A stretch of 64,000 bases of DNA from an uncultured Alphaproteobacteria bacterium (GTDB taxonomy: Bacteria; Pseudomonadota; Alphaproteobacteria; Rhodobacterales; Rhodobacteraceae). Below, piece after piece: positions 44,995-54,066 of the stretch. The stretch's first letter is position 1; every line of letters begins with the position of its first letter. The notes beneath the pieces are model-generated. The model was not told where the DNA came from. It saw nothing but the letters and a program-made list of their open reading frames with translations, and searched no databases. Position numbers and translations under genes: made by a program. The stretch lies in the NCBI GenBank assembly GCA_902586885.1, contig CACIJG010000001.1, positions 1 to 64,000 of the forward strand, read 5' to 3'.

Positions 44995-46638
44995 CTAAAT
45001 GAAGTCAAATGCCTCATTAAGAAAGGGCTTAAATTTTTTCCATTTTTCAGAGCTACCCTGATAAACTTTTTTCCTAACTTGTGACTTAGATGCTGTGGTT
45101 ACAGCTCTTTTGTTTTCTTGAGGTGATAAACACTCTTTTTCCCATTTTAAATTCAGATGCTTAATCAGTTTCTGTGTCTCACTTTCTTGGCTAGTCGTCA
45201 GCAATTCATAGTCAAGATGATAAATTTTATTACCAAGTTTCTCCTGCCAAAATTTCATAAGGTTTTTGTACAATGAGTAATATTTAGTAATGTCATCGAT
45301 AGAGTAAGAATAACCCAAAGATTTTGTTGTAAAATATTGTTTGTAATTAGCCCAACATAGTGCGGCGGGATCTCTTTTAACATGCACTATTTTAGCTTCA
45401 GGGAACGCTGCCGCGAGTAAACCCAGGAACCGAAAGTTTTGAGGCAGCTTATCGGTAACAAACGGACTCTCGTTGGAGAGTTTTTGTAATTGGAACAAGT
45501 ATTTTTCTCTGAAATCAAGTAACGTATTTGTATTTGCTTCATGTAAACCTGTTGCGATAAGATGGCCAAATCGAGCAACAAAAGGTAGTTCTCCCGCACC
45601 GGTTACTTGAGAGTGTGATGAAATAATTTGTTCAACTAAAGTGGTTCCAGAACGCGGCATTCCAACAATAAAAATTGGAATTGAATTGTTTACATTTTTT
45701 TCAATTTTTAATGAGTTTCTTTCTACTTTAGCATAGCTGGATTTAAGCAGCTTAAAAAACTGAATATCCAGCCTGATATCATACTTCAAAAGTTTTTTGC
45801 GTAATAGATTACCTTCGCGATAATGTTTAAACGATTTTGCTAAGTCTCCTATATCTTCGCAAGCCTTTGCTAAAGCAAAATTAATGTCACAGCGGTCTTC
45901 ATCTGAGATTGTTTTATCGAAATATAGTTGCTCCATTTTCGAAAATTCTTCATCCTTTTTTTCAAAAGTTTTTACTTGTGTAAGAAATCGGTAGGCCACA
46001 GAGTAACTGGGTTTTAATGCGATGGCTTTCCTATAACTTGCTTTAGCTTCTTTTAATTTGCCCAGTGCATGAAGAGTCACTCCTAAATTATTGTGCGCTT
46101 GAAAATATTCCGGTTTTAATTTTATGGCTTTCCTATAACTTGCTTTAGCTTCTTCTAATCTGCCTAATGCGTGAAGAGTCACTCCTAAATTATTGTGCGC
46201 TTGAAAATATTCCGGTTTTAATGTTATCGCTTGCCTGTAGCTTGCTACAGCTTCATCTAAATTATCTATTTTATGAAGTACAAGACCCAAGTTATAAAAG
46301 GCTTGTTCATGGTCAGGTTTATATATTGTTACCTCTCTATAACTAGCGACTGATTCCTTTAATCTGCCTAGACCGTCAAGTAAAATGCCCAAGTTTAAAT
46401 GTGCTTCTACCAATTCTGGCTTATATTTTATAGCCAATCTGTAACTTGCTTCAGCCTCTCTTAGTTTGCCAAGCTTTTTAATAACGGTCCCCAAGTTGCA
46501 ATGTGCTTCAGCAAAGTCAGGCTTAAGTTTTAATGTGTGAATGTAACTAGTTACTGCTTCCTTTACTTTGCCTAATTTTTGAAACGCAACTCCTAGTCTG
46601 TAATGCGCTAGTGCGTCTTCAATATTAGATTTTGGCAA
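44995..46638 (-). CDS. TPR repeat-containing sulfotransferase
   Basis: About six TPR units (AHNNLGVTLHALGRLEEAKASYRKAI) then a sulfotransferase domain (PIFIVGMPRSGTTLVEQIISSHSQVTGAGEL). Confidence 0.9.
   Translation of the reverse strand: MPKSNIEDALAHYRLGVAFQKLGKVKEAVTSYIHTLKLKPDFAEAHCNLGTVIKKLGKLREAEASYRLAIKYKPELVEAHLNLGILLDGLGRLKESVASYREVTIYKPDHEQAFYNLGLVLHKIDNLDEAVASYRQAITLKPEYFQAHNNLGVTLHALGRLEEAKASYRKAIKLKPEYFQAHNNLGVTLHALGKLKEAKASYRKAIALKPSYSVAYRFLTQVKTFEKKDEEFSKMEQLYFDKTISDEDRCDINFALAKACEDIGDLAKSFKHYREGNLLRKKLLKYDIRLDIQFFKLLKSSYAKVERNSLKIEKNVNNSIPIFIVGMPRSGTTLVEQIISSHSQVTGAGELPFVARFGHLIATGLHEANTNTLLDFREKYLFQLQKLSNESPFVTDKLPQNFRFLGLLAAAFPEAKIVHVKRDPAALCWANYKQYFTTKSLGYSYSIDDITKYYSLYKNLMKFWQEKLGNKIYHLDYELLTTSQESETQKLIKHLNLKWEKECLSPQENKRAVTTASKSQVRKKVYQGSSEKWKKFKPFLNEAFDFI
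46009..46212 (-). repeat. Near-identical 102-bp tandem duplication encoding two consecutive TPR units
   Basis: EYFQAHNNLGVTLHALGRLEEAKASYRKAIKLKP followed by EYFQAHNNLGVTLHALGKLKEAKASYRKAIALKP; DNA also near identical. Confidence 0.85.
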
Positions 46639-46652
46639 TATTTACTCCCACT

Positions 46653-47270
46653 CTAAACTGAACGTTTCATGGAGTTATAGAGAGACGTTTTATCTAAATC
46701 TTTCATAACACTTTGAACAGACTCATAATCTACCTTCTCTCTATTCTGGCTGATCTTCGATTTTGCTGAAATCCTTTCAACTTTGAGTTTAAACGCCACG
46801 ATATTTTCTAGCATTTGCTCCATAAAATCTTTTGGGGCATCAGACATTTTCCATGCTTTTTTTCCAGAGAAAGCGAGTTCATACGTTTTAGTTAATTTGC
46901 CGACAGTGGAGAGCTTGTCCTTTTTTGATTTATAGAAGGATAAGTGTCCATGAAGATGTACAACTTGATAATTCCATGTAGGTACATGTCGATGTGTCTC
47001 TGGCTTTGTGGGATACCAATTAGGAGATATGTAGGAATCTTCCGCTCTAAATATAGCTATTGCATTTGTCCCATTTGGAAACGTCTCATGTAGATAGTTT
47101 GCCCTAGCTATATGTCCGATGTATTCATTATTTTTGTGGTGTATAATTGGAATATGATTTGCTATGAAATTACCATCCAAATAGCAAATTAAGGTCGCCA
47201 AAGGAAATTGTTTAATTAGCTTTTCTATTTCTTTTTTGTCATTTTCCTTAAAGTGATTTGGCAAATACAT
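46653..47270 (-). CDS. FMN-binding negative transcriptional regulator, PaiB-like
   Basis: MYLPNHF...YIGHIARANYLHE...AIFRAEDSYISPNWYPTK...VPTWNYQVVHLHG. Confidence 0.9.
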   Translation of the reverse strand: MYLPNHFKENDKKEIEKLIKQFPLATLICYLDGNFIANHIPIIHHKNNEYIGHIARANYLHETFPNGTNAIAIFRAEDSYISPNWYPTKPETHRHVPTWNYQVVHLHGHLSFYKSKKDKLSTVGKLTKTYELAFSGKKAWKMSDAPKDFMEQMLENIVAFKLKVERISAKSKISQNREKVDYESVQSVMKDLDKTSLYNSMKRSV

Positions 47271-47323: not shown

Positions 47324-47532
47324 TGATTCCCATTCAATAGTTCTAAACATTTTTTGTTATTTAAAATCAATAACTTACAAAAAGTCTGCCATAAGCCTTT
47401 AACACTTTAAGCTTTTTGAAATTAACAGAACTATAGATTTTACCCTTTATTAAATTTAAATTGAGCTCAACTATACTTGAATGTTAAGTCATTGTCACTT
47501 AACAAGAGACTGTAATGAAAAGTGGCAGACTT
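47324..47532 (-). repeat. Degenerate copy (C) of the guaA-tail plus ~208-bp element-end repeat
   Basis: Minus strand core AGAACTATTGAATGGGAATCA resembles guaA GGAACTATTGAGTGGGAGTAA; the other end (GTCTGCCACTTTT...AAGTGACAATGA...) lines up with copies A and B at the same length. Confidence 0.65.
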
Positions 47533-47731
47533 TGACACAAAATAATGCTAAACAGAAACTATATATCCAGAGCATCAAAACGACATTCAAGAATATTATT
47601 AAACCGAAAAGGAATGAGTAAACCTAATACTTTGTAAATATTAAATCTCAATATTTCATTATATTAAAAATGATATACTGTGACTTTGTTCAAGTTATGC
47701 TCACATATTTTATTGAAGTTTGGTTTCCAAC

Positions 47732-49468
47732 TTATGGTGATAGGAAAACATCGAACGCCCCATTTAGGAATGGTTGATATTTTTTCCATTGTTGAGAGCT
47801 GCCCTGGTATAGTTTTTCTCTAACTTGAAGATTGGATGCTGTTGCTACTCTTCTTTTGTTATTTTGTGGTGAGAGACATTTTTCATCCCAATCTAAGTCA
47901 AGATGATTAATAAGCTGCCGAGTTTCATTTTCCTGATTAACAGTTAAAGTTTCATAATCAAGATTGTAAATTCTATTGTGTAGTGTGTTTGTCCAAAACT
48001 CCATAAGATTTACATACAGCTTATGATAACTGACGATATCATCGAGAGCGTAACAGTAGCCCAGATCTCTTGAGACAAAATACTGTTTATAATTTGCCCA
48101 ACATACTGCTGCGGGGTTTCTTTTAACATGTATTATTTTAGCCTCAGGAAAAGCTGCAGCAAGCAGTCCTATGTAACGGAAGTTTTGAGGCATTTTGTCT
48201 GTAACAAGTAATTTTCTGTAGGAAATTTTCTTAAGTTCTCCTAGGTATTTGTGCCGAAAATCAAGCAAAACTTCACGATCTACTTTAGAACTACCATTTG
48301 CAATAGTTGATCCAAACTTAGCTGCATAAGATAACTCCCCTGCACCTGTAACTTGCGAATGAGAAGAAATAATTTGTTCAACTAAAGTTGTGCCAGAACG
48401 AGGCATGCCAACGATAAAAATAGGCCTCACATCCTTTGGCAATTTTTCTGGATCTAACGAATTGTACTCTATCGCCGAATAACTAGATTTGATTTGCCTA
48501 AACAATTCAATATCTTTACTGATATCATAGTTCAACAATTTTTTACGTAGGGTATTACCTTCTCTATAGTGAGCAAAAGCTTGTTCAAAATCTTTTAAAT
48601 CATCACATGCCTTGGCTAAGCCAAAGTTAATCTGGCAACGCTGCTCCTCTGATATATCTCCATTAAGATATAGTTCTAGCATTTTTGAAAACTGTTTGTC
48701 ACGTCTGTCAAATTTTTTTATCAATGTGAGGTTTCTATGAGCTTCAGCATAATCAGGCTTCAAGGCTAATGCTTTGATGAAGCAGGCTGTAGCCTCGTCC
48801 AATTTCCCTAGTTCCTGGAGTATCAAGCCCAAGTTATTTCGGGCTAAGGGGTTATCAGGATTCAACGAGATCGCTTTCTTACAGCAAGCTTCGGCAGCTT
48901 CTACCCTACCAAGTTTTTTTAGTGTGTTACCTAAGTTGTTATAAGCTGCAGCAGAGTTTGGTTCAAGTGCTATAGCTTTCTTGAAAATTACTTCGGCTTC
49001 ATCTAGTCTCCCCAGTTCCTCAAGCGTAGCACCCAAATTATTGTGAGCGTTAGGGTAAAGAGGCTTTATTGCTATTGCGTGTCTAAATCTTACTTCAGCT
49101 GCATTTAGTCTACCTAGTTCTTTGAGCGTGATGCCTAGGTTATTGTGTGCTGCAACAAAGTTAGGGTTCAAAACTATTGCTTGGGTGAAACTTTTCTCAG
49201 CTAAATCTAATTTACCCATTCTTCTGAGAATGAACCCTAAGCTATTATGGTTTTCTGCATCTTGAGGAGATAACGCAACTGCTTTTTCATTAGCAAAAAG
49301 CGCATCTGAAATCCTACCTTTTTGTGCTAACACAGCGCCGAGAGCCTTCCAACCTATCATAAAAGAAGGAAATTGTTGCGTCATTAACACTGCTTGTTCT
49401 TCTGCTTCCTCATATCGTCCTTTTCGGTAATGCTCTATTAATCTTTTTATTTTCTCTTTAGAAGGCAT
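47732..49468 (-). CDS. TPR repeat-containing sulfotransferase (paralog of 44995-46638)
   Basis: TPR units then PIFIVGMPRSGTTLVEQIISSHSQVTGAGEL; start likely ATG 49468, because the ORF-track start (49537) lies in the repeated guaA tail. Confidence 0.9.
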   Translation of the reverse strand: MPSKEKIKRLIEHYRKGRYEEAEEQAVLMTQQFPSFMIGWKALGAVLAQKGRISDALFANEKAVALSPQDAENHNSLGFILRRMGKLDLAEKSFTQAIVLNPNFVAAHNNLGITLKELGRLNAAEVRFRHAIAIKPLYPNAHNNLGATLEELGRLDEAEVIFKKAIALEPNSAAAYNNLGNTLKKLGRVEAAEACCKKAISLNPDNPLARNNLGLILQELGKLDEATACFIKALALKPDYAEAHRNLTLIKKFDRRDKQFSKMLELYLNGDISEEQRCQINFGLAKACDDLKDFEQAFAHYREGNTLRKKLLNYDISKDIELFRQIKSSYSAIEYNSLDPEKLPKDVRPIFIVGMPRSGTTLVEQIISSHSQVTGAGELSYAAKFGSTIANGSSKVDREVLLDFRHKYLGELKKISYRKLLVTDKMPQNFRYIGLLAAAFPEAKIIHVKRNPAAVCWANYKQYFVSRDLGYCYALDDIVSYHKLYVNLMEFWTNTLHNRIYNLDYETLTVNQENETRQLINHLDLDWDEKCLSPQNNKRRVATASNLQVREKLYQGSSQQWKKYQPFLNGAFDVFLSP

Positions 49469-49527
49469 TCCATTTTTAGTTTTTTTATTATTTTTGTATA
49501 TATTGCTCAACAAACTAGCTTTCAGCC

Positions 49528-49735
49528 TTATTCCCACTCAATTGTTCCACGTCTGTAAGCCAATGTTTTTGTTGCCTTTTTAAAAAGTTTGTCACTACTT
49601 TGTCATTTTTTACACTTTCAGACTTTCGAAGAACTATTGCTTTTATCCTTTTCTAAATCCTTATTACGCTCAATCATACTTAAACATTAGTTAATTGTCA
49701 CTTGGTGAGACTCTGTCACCAAAAGTGACAGACTC
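49528..49735 (-). repeat. Copy A of the guaA-tail plus ~208-bp element-end repeat
   Basis: Minus strand GGAACAATTGAGTGGGAATAA encodes GTIEWE-stop, the GuaA C-terminus; the whole 208 bp matches 50832-51040 closely in the same orientation. Confidence 0.9.
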
Positions 49736-49825
49736 TAACAATAAATTTATCGTAACAGTGATTTAATGTTGACAAATTAACAGAATTCTTTCAAGAGACA
49801 AAATCACTGTTGAGGTTGCAGTTTT

Positions 49826-50761
49826 ATGAAATCAGAAAAGTTAGGGTTAATTCTTGTTTTATTGGGAATGGGCTTATTCTCGATACAAGATGTTATTATT
49901 AAACTAATCGCAGATCGTGTTTCTTTAATGCAAATTCTGTTTTTTAGAGCTAGCTTAGGCACTCTTTTACTAATCTGTTTTTTGTGGGTTAGTGGCAAGC
50001 CAATAAAATTGGGCTCTTTTTACCCCAAAACTGCCATGTTTAGAGGTGTCACCTTTTTCATTGGTTTTACGTTATTTTATGTTTCTATTTCAAAGATCTC
50101 ATTAGCGGAGGCAAATAGCTTGTTTTTCTCCAATCCTATTTTTGTAACAATTTTTTCTGTATTCTTTTTAAAAATCTCAATAGGAATTCATCGGTTTTTC
50201 GCTGTTTTTTTTGGTTTTTTAGGGGCTTTGTTAATTATCAAGCCATCTTTGAATAATATTAATTGGTATATGGTTTTACCATTGATCACTGCAATAAGCT
50301 ACTCTATTGGAATGTTATTGGCTAAGAAGACAAGTGATAAAGATAATGCTTTTCAACAATCTTTTCATATATACCTTGGAGGAGTGATTTTATCTCCTTT
50401 AGTTACAATGGTAGCAAAATATGGCTTCCCTCAATATGAAAATGATCAAACTAAATTCCTCTTTATGCCCTGGGAATTTGGTGAAATATATATATTAGGT
50501 ATGTTATTAATAATTACTATTACTGGTACAATTGGAATTTTTCTATTAGTTTATGCATATAACATAGGTTCTCCTCAATCTAATGCCCCCATGGAATACG
50601 TCCTTCTATTTTATTCTTTAGTTTTGGGCTTTTTTATTTTTGGAGATGTTCCCGATTTTCTATCTTTTCTAGGGATAGTTTTTATCATCTTAAGTGGAGT
50701 TTATATTTTTATACGTGAAGCAAAGCGTGAAAAGTTGGTTGCTGTTAAGAAAGAAAGATAA
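49826..50761 (+). CDS. EamA/DMT family transporter
   Basis: About ten TM segments; LGMGLFSIQDVIIKLIADRVSLMQILFFRASLGTLLL. Confidence 0.88.
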   Translation: MKSEKLGLILVLLGMGLFSIQDVIIKLIADRVSLMQILFFRASLGTLLLICFLWVSGKPIKLGSFYPKTAMFRGVTFFIGFTLFYVSISKISLAEANSLFFSNPIFVTIFSVFFLKISIGIHRFFAVFFGFLGALLIIKPSLNNINWYMVLPLITAISYSIGMLLAKKTSDKDNAFQQSFHIYLGGVILSPLVTMVAKYGFPQYENDQTKFLFMPWEFGEIYILGMLLIITITGTIGIFLLVYAYNIGSPQSNAPMEYVLLFYSLVLGFFIFGDVPDFLSFLGIVFIILSGVYIFIREAKREKLVAVKKER

Positions 50762-50831
50762 TCCAGAATTTCTTTTTACGTCCACTCAATAATACTATTA
50801 CTGTAAAATATTGATTTTATTGACTTTTTAA

Positions 50832-51040
50832 TCACTCCCACTCAATTGTTTCACGTCTGTAAGTCATTGATTTAATTAAATTTTTTAAAAGTTTGTCACT
50901 ACTTTGTCACTTTTTACCCTTTTAGACTTTTGAAGAATTATTGCTTTTATCTTTTAGTAAATCCTTATTATGCTCAATCATACTTAAACATTAGTTAATT
51001 GTCACTTGGTAAGACTCTGTCACCAAAATTGACAGACTTT
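50832..51040 (-). repeat. Copy B of the guaA-tail plus ~208-bp element-end repeat
   Basis: Minus strand GAAACAATTGAGTGGGAGTGA core; direct repeat with 49528-49735; the sequence beyond the core (TTAAAAAGTCAATAAAATCAAT) also resembles the sequence just after guaA. Confidence 0.9.
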
Positions 51041-51140
51041 GTTTGCTTTTATATGCGTTTAGATTAGCTCACAAAAACTCGGGCTCTGCCAAAGGAGTTT
51101 ACATGGGGCATCCTGAATTTGAAGGGTTTGAGGTTGTAAT

Positions 51141-51365
51141 CTAATCTGTGCCTATCTCACCCTCTACCACATGTTCAAGATTTAGTTCCTCACAAGATAA
51201 AACCATTTTTACTTTCACCATACCTGTACCACTATAAACTTTTTCTATCTCTTGTTGAGAAGTAATCCCTACTTTCTTTAGGAACTTCCTTATGGACATA
51301 GTCACCTCATCATCATTCATGATTTTCTCCATATCAGTATTAAATTTTTCAAATCTTTCTCCCAT
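51141..51365 (-). CDS. DUF6494-like small protein
   Basis: EVTMSIRKFLKKVGITSQQEIEKVY resembles the DUF6494 pattern. Confidence 0.65.
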   Translation of the reverse strand: MGERFEKFNTDMEKIMNDDEVTMSIRKFLKKVGITSQQEIEKVYSGTGMVKVKMVLSCEELNLEHVVEGEIGTD

Positions 51366-51551
51366 ATCTAGCCATTTTCTTTTAGCTCTTAGATATTACA
51401 AAACTCTTTGAGCATATCAATAAACTGATAATATTTGCCAATAACTTGAACTATAAATAAATTCACTTTTTCTGACAATTAATACTCCTTTATCAGCGTG
51501 TTAACAATAATAGCAGCTTTAAAATTCTTTATTTCACCTTAAATCATTTTT

Positions 51552-51620
51552 TTAAGAAACAGGGGTTGCGCCAGTATCATGTCGCCAAACCACTCCGTCT
51601 TTCTTAATGTAAACTGCCAT
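51552..51620 (-). CDS. Possible 22-aa ORF downstream of 51623-51925
   Basis: MAVYIKKDGVVWRHDTGATPVS; starts 2 nt after the stop of the upstream gene, suggesting coupling. Confidence 0.25.
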   Translation of the reverse strand: MAVYIKKDGVVWRHDTGATPVS

Positions 51621-51622
51621 TA

Positions 51623-51925
51623 TCACCTTTCCCCTGCCTTTACTTTACTTGAAAAGACATGCTTCACAACCATATCTCCAGATAGCCTGAAATTCTCCTT
51701 AACAAGATGTTTTAATTCTCCCGAAGTACGACTTTCAGCGAGATTGCGAGCTTCTTCGTTGGGATAAACTGAAACGCCCACACAGCTTGTTTCAGTGGTT
51801 TTAATCATCAATAGCATTTCAGCATCAGGGTATAGAGTAGGGCTATCTCTTTCATACATATCCAGAAAATCTTGCATAGCCTCTTTTGTTTCAAAATCCA
51901 TTGATACAACGTTAGTAGGTGTCAT
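51623..51925 (-). CDS. Hypothetical protein, 100 aa
   Basis: Intact ORF in the same direction as its neighbours; no family recognised. Confidence 0.6.
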   Translation of the reverse strand: MTPTNVVSMDFETKEAMQDFLDMYERDSPTLYPDAEMLLMIKTTETSCVGVSVYPNEEARNLAESRTSGELKHLVKENFRLSGDMVVKHVFSSKVKAGER

Positions 51926-51944
51926 TTTAAATTTCCCTTTTTTT

Positions 51945-52271
51945 TCATTCTTTGATAGGAATTCTATTAATTATAGTTCTCCATGGTTTTCCATCTCTAA
52001 AGTGTGTAGTATTTACCGATAAAACAAATTGTCCATCAAGAACGTACTTTTGTTCAAAAACTACCAGGTGTTCAGTTTCTAAAAGACATTTGGCATTATC
52101 ATGAAGGGTTACTTCGCCATCATCGAACTCTTTTTTTGACGCGTCAAGCCAATCGTCTCTCGTAAGCAATTCAAAATCAGCAACAAATAAAAAATCAGGA
52201 TGTAACCATGCCTTAATAGCATCCAAATCCTTGTTGCTCATGTCTCTCACCATTTTATCGAAATAATTCAT
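51945..52271 (-). CDS. SnoaL/NTF2-like protein
   Basis: AIKAWLHPDFLFVADFELLTRDDWLDA...NTTHFRDGKPWRTIINRIPI. Confidence 0.75.
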   Translation of the reverse strand: MNYFDKMVRDMSNKDLDAIKAWLHPDFLFVADFELLTRDDWLDASKKEFDDGEVTLHDNAKCLLETEHLVVFEQKYVLDGQFVLSVNTTHFRDGKPWRTIINRIPIKE

Positions 52272-52524
52272 ATCAAGCTACTTTCTTTAAATTTTTTACA
52301 CACTATTTCTGCATATGTTCATTTGCTTAGCAACTAGTGATAGCAAAACGTCAAAAACAAAGTAAATCTTTACGATGTCTCATAAAGTCTAAAAGTTTGC
52401 CGAAAAGTTTGAAGCCGTAAAAATTAAATGATTTAATATCAATGGCTTAGGTTTATAAAAATAATGTTTTTAAAAAAATAAAATCATATAAGTAATTGTT
52501 TTAATTGACTTTTTATAAACCAAG

Positions 52525-54066
52525 TTACTCCCACTCAATAGTTCCGGGAGGTTTTGATGTAATGTCAAATAAAACTCTATTAACACCTTCTATTTCATTT
52601 ATTATTTTATTACTTGTTTCGCTTAGAAAAGCCTTGCTAAAATAAAAAAAATCGGCAGTCATCCCATCTGTACTATTTACAGCTCTTAATATGCAGGCGT
52701 ATTCGTGGGTTCTTGCGTCGCCCATGACACCAACGCTTTTCACAGGCAAAATTATAGCTAAAGCCTGCCAAATCTTATTATAAAGTTTATATTTGATTAG
52801 TTGGCTAACAAATATATTATCCACCTCTCTTAAAAGTTTGAGCCTCTTATTCGAAATTACTCCAGGGCATCGTATTGCCAGGCCGGGTCCTGGGAAAGGG
52901 TGTCTTTGTATAAATGTTTTATCAAGACCAAGGTTAACACCAATTTTTCTTACCTCATCTTTGAAAAGAGCTCTTAAAGGTTCAACAAGTTTTAGGTTCA
53001 TATTTTTTGGAAGACCTCCCACGTTATGATGGCTTTTAATTGTATGTGAGGATTTGCCATGAATAGAAATCGACTCAATTACATCCGGATATAATGTACC
53101 TTGGGCTAAATATTTTATGCCCTTTAATTTTTCTGACTGAGACTCGAAAACTTCAATAAATGTTTTTCCGATAATTTTACGTTTTTTTTCTGGCTCAGAT
53201 ATTCCTTTAAGCCTTCTTAGGAATAAATTTTTGGCATTTATCGATATCAACTTAATTTTGTAATGTTTTTTGAATAGTTTTGTGATTTGTGCGGGTTCAT
53301 TTTTTCTTAAAAGTCCATTGTCAACAAAAATACAGGTAAGATTACTTCCAATAGCTTTGTTTAAAAGTAAGGCTGTAACAGAGCTGTCTACTCCTCCAGA
53401 CAAAGCGCATAATACTTTCTCTTCCCCTATTTTATTCTTTAATTTATATATTATGTCTTCGGTAATCTTAGATGCAGTCCAATTAGGTTTAATATTTGCA
53501 ATTTTTAAAAAGTTTTTAAACAATAGAGAGCCATTTTTAGTATGAAAAACTTCTGGATGAAACTGCACACCAAAGAACTTGTTCTTGAAATCTCCTACAA
53601 TCGCAAAATCTGAACTATCTGACTTTGCTAAAGAAACAAAATTTTTAGGTAATTGAGAGACAGCATCTCCGTGGCTCATCCAAACCTTTTCAAACCCCTT
53701 CTTAAAGAGTCCGTTTAGAAGGGGGCTTTTTTGCTCGATAGTTTTAGTGATTAATGTTCTTCCAAATTCTCTCTTGGATTGTTTTTGTACCTTACCGCCC
53801 ATTAGTTTACACAATAATTGATGGCCGTAGCATATGCCTAAAATAGGAATTTTCAGATCAAAAATCTCTCTTGGTATTGTAGGACTATTATCGGATGAGG
53901 TCGACTCTGGTCCACCGGATAAAATTAGAGCCACTGGTTTTAGTTGCTCAATATTTTTTAATAAATCGTTTTCCCATGATATTATTTCGCAATAAACGTT
54001 TAGCTCTCTTACTCTTCTTGCGATTAACTGAGTAACTTGACTACCGAAATCTATTATAAGTAACAT
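52525..54066 (-). CDS. guaA: GMP synthase (glutamine-hydrolysing)
   Basis: ILGICYGHQLLCKLMGG; LSGGVDSSVTALLL; C-terminus TSKPPGTIEWE. Confidence 0.97.
   Translation of the reverse strand: MLLIIDFGSQVTQLIARRVRELNVYCEIISWENDLLKNIEQLKPVALILSGGPESTSSDNSPTIPREIFDLKIPILGICYGHQLLCKLMGGKVQKQSKREFGRTLITKTIEQKSPLLNGLFKKGFEKVWMSHGDAVSQLPKNFVSLAKSDSSDFAIVGDFKNKFFGVQFHPEVFHTKNGSLLFKNFLKIANIKPNWTASKITEDIIYKLKNKIGEEKVLCALSGGVDSSVTALLLNKAIGSNLTCIFVDNGLLRKNEPAQITKLFKKHYKIKLISINAKNLFLRRLKGISEPEKKRKIIGKTFIEVFESQSEKLKGIKYLAQGTLYPDVIESISIHGKSSHTIKSHHNVGGLPKNMNLKLVEPLRALFKDEVRKIGVNLGLDKTFIQRHPFPGPGLAIRCPGVISNKRLKLLREVDNIFVSQLIKYKLYNKIWQALAIILPVKSVGVMGDARTHEYACILRAVNSTDGMTADFFYFSKAFLSETSNKIINEIEGVNRVLFDITSKPPGTIEWE

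Follow-up and report, generated by a model that had tools for sequence, protein, structure and literature searches.

Repeats around a DMT transporter gene as probable ends of small integrase-less units stacked behind guaA in a Rhodobacteraceae draft genome

The window, meaning the whole stretch of 64,000 nucleotides that was analysed, belongs to a 1.84-Mb draft genome of 68 contigs that is 76% complete, and it carries guaA, the gene for GMP synthase, whose product is 68–72% identical in amino acids to most orthologues of the genus. Among named genomes the nearest GuaA is that of Chachezhania, which makes Rhodobacteraceae the probable family. Downstream of guaA, that is, toward falling coordinates, follow unit 1, end module B, unit 2, end module A, unit 3, end module C and an accessory block (Table 1), beyond which genes for DUF952, DUF924 and M20 peptidase proteins are kept at the same place in relatives. 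The Pfam domains of the ORFs in the window include no integrase among the array genes, and the TPR-sulfotransferase ORF of unit 3 has a likely ATG start at 49468. Allowing at most one mismatch, the tail of guaA occurs in the window as four cores and nowhere else. The motif GAGTGGGA is the 8-bp consensus reported for guaA islands (PMC7775301), and the duplication of a core with this motif at the 3′ end of guaA, which guaA-integrated genomic islands require, is present, with core C having GAATGGGA.

Table 1. Features of the guaA locus, with positions in the window
Feature	Position	Strand	Details
guaA (GMP synthase), host gene with the integration site at its 3′ end	52525-54066	-	Pfam GATase + GMP_synt_C
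Genuine guaA 3′-end core GGAACTATTGAGTGGGAGTAA	52525-52545	-	contains GAGTGGGA
Unit 1	50853-52524		DUF4440-like ORF 51945-52271 (-) and 100-aa ORF 51623-51925 (-)
End module B	50832-51041	-	core 50832-50852; IHF-consensus site AATCAATGACTTA 50860-50872; paired arm repeats 50892-50910
Degenerate second core AATAGTATTATTGAGTGG	50782-50799	-	about 50 bp beyond core B
Unit 2 cargo: EamA/DMT transporter, 311 aa	49826-50761	+	PF00892, E 7.7e-26
End module A	49528-49738	-	core 49528-49548; paired arm repeats; inverted GTGACA/TGTCAC pair
Unit 3 cargo: TPR + sulfotransferase protein	47732-49537 (ORF as listed)	-	
End module C, diverged copy, guaA-like core AGAACTATTGAATGGGAATCA	47324-47536	-	
Accessory block beyond core C	44995-47270	-	FMN-binding protein 46653-47270; TPR-sulfotransferase 44995-46638

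The sequence-only reading had described the transporter gene as bracketed by direct repeats of about 208 bp, 85–90% identical by eye, each with a guaA tail and with exactly one gene between them. Pairwise alignment bears this out, as 49532–49734 and 50836–51038 align without gaps over 203 nt at 90% identity (score 301; the best of 200 shuffles scored 30), both copies, A and B, start in the plus orientation with the guaA 3′-end core TCCCACTCAATTGTT, and the transporter is the one gene enclosed. The 10-bp guaA-core fragment noticed just after the transporter stop, CCACTCAATA at 50782–50791, is likewise real, and belongs to the degenerate second core (minus strand, GTATTATTGAGTGGAC). The earlier reading overlooked copy C, which aligns with a score of 75 against a shuffled maximum of 31 and is matched at 143 bits (E 8.8e-42) by a six-sequence model of the end in which C is itself included. 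This third copy makes the locus an array of at least three units. The transporter gene does form a discrete unit, as had been proposed, but one among those in tandem; similarly, the repeats are of the site-specific attachment type with a guaA core, but the 203 bp represent a shared element end rather than a repeat formed around the transporter. The end module always sits on the guaA-distal side of the cargo, and no further copy was found elsewhere in the 1.84-Mb draft, at its 76% completeness. That the arrangement is an assembly artefact, a concern with a source in 68 contigs, has a negligible probability, since one position in ten differs between the copies and separate genomes of other species and genera show the same architecture.

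Each end of about 206 bp, when read toward guaA, presents GTGACA/TGTCAC-type sites (an inverted pair, a single site, a direct pair) and then the core, with more such sites in end module B up to about 51040. Counting positions from the ATTGA of the core, CAAAGT at −60 and CAAACT or CAAAGT at −49 form an arm pair in A, B, L089, L090 and the integrase-bearing element of L117, with one repeat of the pair left in L113 and a spacing one base shorter in L121. The arm repeats have an 11-bp period, and the geometry of the whole end is lambda-like. At −26, the ends B, L113, L117 and L090 have the IHF consensus WATCAANNNNTTR, and L089 has it with one mismatch; the exact form is thus found at the same position in four of ten ends, partly kin by descent and not ten independent trials, against a mean of 0.06 and a maximum of 1 in 2000 shuffles. 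Copy A is without the IHF consensus and copy C without the arm pair. At the guaA-proximal ends of the units no clear arm repeats were found, and IHF-type sites occur there in 2 of 25 cases, a count reached in 26 of 2000 shuffles and hence weak evidence. The letters of the arms vary by element type, being GTGACAAA here, GTTACAAA in L089 and TTTCAAA in the integrase element of L117, which would fit their being read by different integrases.

Among 397 genomes of the family and 22 of the genus, the pattern of an arm pair, a gap of 38 to 52 bp and a guaA core matches these guaA-type ends alone, all with equal spacing save one end that is a base shorter, and control hits numbered 0. The sequence model of the end module gives 11 matches in the 22 genus genomes, spread over six of them and all behind guaA; six ends went into building the model and match it by construction, and the matches beyond these lie in G215 (two ends, one short piece), G212 and G206 (one end each). 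Matches in G172 and G054, being short and partial, were dropped. Such a repeat could in principle be an interspersed or regulatory one, i.e., a promoter, terminator or small-RNA element that flanks genes by chance, as the inverted GTGACA/TGTCAC pair and the single-strand folding of copy A, mildly better than shuffled (z −2.3), might suggest. This is very unlikely given that the matches in the 22 genomes are confined to the region behind guaA and joined to its core, that the end module has no match in Rfam, and that the two hairpin halves change independently among the copies.

In relatives, guaA cores are found behind the gene at +1157 in G209, +3350 and +8536 in G216, +1816 in G215, +1868 in G218 and, in another genus, +1398 in G033, while in G204 the conserved flanking genes come directly after guaA, and the 65 bp starting at core B are 88% identical to the post-guaA sequence of that genome. 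The cargo at such ends differs from place to place: an HNH nuclease in L089, a TPR-methyltransferase in L122, NTF2-like genes in L121 and a type I restriction-modification system in L117. In G033 a single HNH nuclease gene occupies the space between guaA and a core at which the last 80 bp are related. TPR-methyltransferase cargo is also recorded for L090, and G092 shows an end module following a TPR-methyltransferase gene near a contig end, with guaA outside the stretch read. The variation of cassettes at one locus, which additive flexible islands require, was found between species of the genus and in other genera. As separate observations, a small serine resolvase/invertase-like gene comes after the distal core in L113 (G209, +1508 to +2059 behind guaA), where it adjoins Sel1-like repeat and methyltransferase-like genes, all named by eye from their translations; and about 185 bp at 47518–47701 of the window match, at 77% identity, an intergenic stretch of G033 (L089) that precedes a cytochrome b561-like gene, this gene being absent at the present locus.

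The comparisons with G212, G218 and G204 reveal presence/absence polymorphism with junctions at the core. In G212 the homologue of unit 3 stands directly at guaA, with units 1 and 2 absent; its similarity to the unit described here, 86.9% over 1848 bp and 93.3% (673/721) over the first 721 bp, begins at base 1 of core A on this side and of the guaA core in G212, whereas the backbone of the two genomes is 66–72% identical (guaA 67%, the upstream gene 72%, the downstream genes 66%). Unit 3 being far closer to G212 than the backbone is, with homology that starts at the core, it follows that units have moved on an evolutionary timescale, and, as judged from these sequences, unit 3 has evidently been transferred horizontally between two species that stand well apart within one genus. 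G218 is a sister species, with 92–93% nucleotide identity in the end of guaA and the downstream genes, in which a single TPR-methyltransferase unit between guaA and end C replaces units 1–3; its end module is 84% identical to end module C, and the FMN-binding and TPR-sulfotransferase block is present at the corresponding place. The sequence-only reading had called for strains lacking only the transporter, and the DMT unit is indeed missing in G212 and G218, both other species; within the genus the DMT protein has no near-identical copy, its best relatives reaching 63–64%. For unit 1, a 351-bp match at 96% identity links the region around its 100-aa ORF to a guaA unit of G209, with the backbone at 69–73%, but this match stops short of the unit ends, and some cargo therefore appears to move by other recombination.

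Relatives encode tyrosine integrases beside guaA. G216 has a 434-aa tyrosine integrase gene starting 145 bp behind guaA; after it come another gene and then two cores with a type I restriction-modification system between them, and the distal end of this integrase element has the same geometry as the array ends. Integrases of the same clade adjoin guaA in three more genera (G282, G318, G336). The first 200 bp behind guaA in L115 (G206) were also seen to hold a left-end sequence very like those of the G282, G318 and G336 integrase islands, with no intact integrase ORF there. A cassette array of the integron kind, in which an integron integrase acts on folded attC sites, would likewise consist of tandem single-gene units with a common site, yet this reading is rated very improbable on the features at hand: the recombination core is the tail of guaA, the double-strand arm geometry does not fit attC, and the integrase of the relative is a generic PF00589 enzyme encoded beside guaA.

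In the window's own draft genome, 76% complete, no integrase of the guaA clade was found, and none with GTGACAAA-type arms was found in any of the genomes or records searched. The one PF00589 match found in that genome was set aside as a helper, since it adjoins tRNA-Thr and is unrelated to guaA; it is a 378-aa tyrosine integrase (contig C8, L181:4174–5310) directly beside the tRNA gene, which probably marks another, tRNA-targeted island. Viral contigs and phage and plasmid records gave no match to the end module or to the arm-gap-core pattern, and the viral contigs held no relatives of the G216 integrase. By itself, the 19-bp arm pair matches two related viral contigs, in a stretch read without a guaA core and with no integrase among the neighbouring ORFs listed. 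In viral contigs L201 (9888–9983) and L202, three repeats of the GTGACAAAGTAGTGACAA type, two of them 11 bp apart, were observed without a guaA core.

Taken together, the repeats are probably the guaA-distal ends of small mobile units without an integrase, which build up one behind another at the 3′ end of guaA and are most likely moved in trans by guaA-specific integrases. As read from its sequence, each repeat is an attR-like end (attLR inside the array) joined to the start of the next unit. A competing account would treat the units as relics, i.e., remnants of ordinary integrase-bearing guaA islands that lost their integrase and spread today only by homologous recombination, not by site-specific recombination, through the guaA regions at their flanks or through their 200-bp ends. 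Integrase-bearing guaA islands do exist in relatives, the sequence behind guaA in G203 holds an integrase fragment interrupted by a stop codon, and several ends are decayed (C here, the second and third in G215, and that of G212). Against this, the boundary of the G212/G000 transfer is the first base of the core, next to guaA sequence of 67% identity, whereas homologous exchange usually brings guaA sequence along, and A and B, still 90% identical, have their arms, spacing and core intact. The relic account is accordingly regarded as improbable, though a good deal less so than the artefact or the regulatory repeat.

CIMEs (cis-mobilizable elements) are att-flanked and integrase-less, accrete in tandem with helpers, and are usually deleted conjugative elements. 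The array units share the att sites at both ends, the lack of an integrase inside, which is also the structure of CR2-sul2-type units, and the tandem order, but unlike CIMEs they have no conjugation genes. Islands at guaA are well established: the guaA-associated genomic islands (Song et al. 2012, cited in PMC7775301, and ICERspD18B) share the integration site and core with the present array, their published direct repeat being ACAATNGAGTGGGAATNNTT and core A ACAATTGAGTGGGAATAA. They are large and equipped with their own integrase, whereas the array units are of about 1.3–2.2 kb, integrase-less and stacked; the absence of an integrase beside guaA is why the units are not classed as guaA islands proper. 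A precedent is CR2-sul2, an integrase-less unit between att cores behind guaA that the GIsul2 integrase has been shown by experiment to excise and integrate (PMC9376610). The attLR site of GIsul2, at which recombination was demonstrated, joins a unit end to the next start like the internal sites here (PMC9376610), although CR2-sul2 is an ISCR-related resistance unit beside its helper, whereas in the present array one 206-bp end is common to several cargo units and the helper is absent. Additive flexible genomic islands of marine bacteria gain and lose cassettes by site-directed recombination, the last 20 bp of a tRNA-Lys gene recurring in the flexible island of Ca. Methylopumilus (PMC5217437, PMC10872708); the cassette turnover is the same, but the target here is a protein gene and the end is long and conserved, with arm and IHF geometry. 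Tycheposons, as described in PMC10872708, are also tyrosine-recombinase cargo elements of streamlined aquatic bacteria, but with tRNA targets and sizes of 4–200 kb, compared with guaA and 1–2 kb for the array. A literature search, mostly of open-access papers, found none combining guaA, genomic islands and Rhodobacteraceae. New here would be the combination of stacked units of one or a few genes, a common and recognisable long end, and the core-precise transfer of one unit between species.

In the proposed model of trans-mobilised units, a guaA-specific tyrosine integrase from another element would bind the arm repeats and the core while IHF bends the DNA between them, following which the circular unit would insert at the guaA core, restoring guaA intact. 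Each new insertion would push the earlier units outward, and single units such as the DMT unit could then excise via recombination between neighbouring cores, i.e., sites B and A. Because each repeat joins a unit end to the next start, excision of the DMT unit, if it occurs, would be an attLR × attLR event; the guaA-proximal ends having no clear arm repeats, such excision may be poor or impossible. Distal ends are decayed in C here and, in G215 and G212, at the outer positions; this agrees with the outward-pushing order, yet does not form a clean gradient.

A broader proposal, offered tentatively and with rather less than even confidence, is that of a cassette economy at guaA in small-genome Rhodobacteraceae, in which single genes would become mobile through an end on one side only, about 206 bp long and made up of arms, IHF site and guaA core, and would be inserted and removed by the integrases of other elements; if true, this would amount to a gene store comparable to an integron but based on an attachment site of the lambda type. 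Streamlined marine bacteria often have variable genes without a visible mobility gene, and the locus provides a concrete, testable minimal transfer unit, with a short searchable end module and a fixed arm-to-core spacing, by which helper-dependent mobility becomes measurable beyond the setting of resistance islands.

Two further features of the array are recorded as side observations. Both at 50782–50852 and behind guaA in L121 (G215) from +1816 to +1880, two cores are separated by only about 50–64 bp, and the truncated end module that they enclose makes the arrangement resemble an empty unit. Genes for TPR-sulfotransferase proteins like those at 44995–46638 and 47732–49537 are recurrent guaA cargo in the genus, e.g., in G000, G212, G215 and G218, and contain internal 102-bp repeats.
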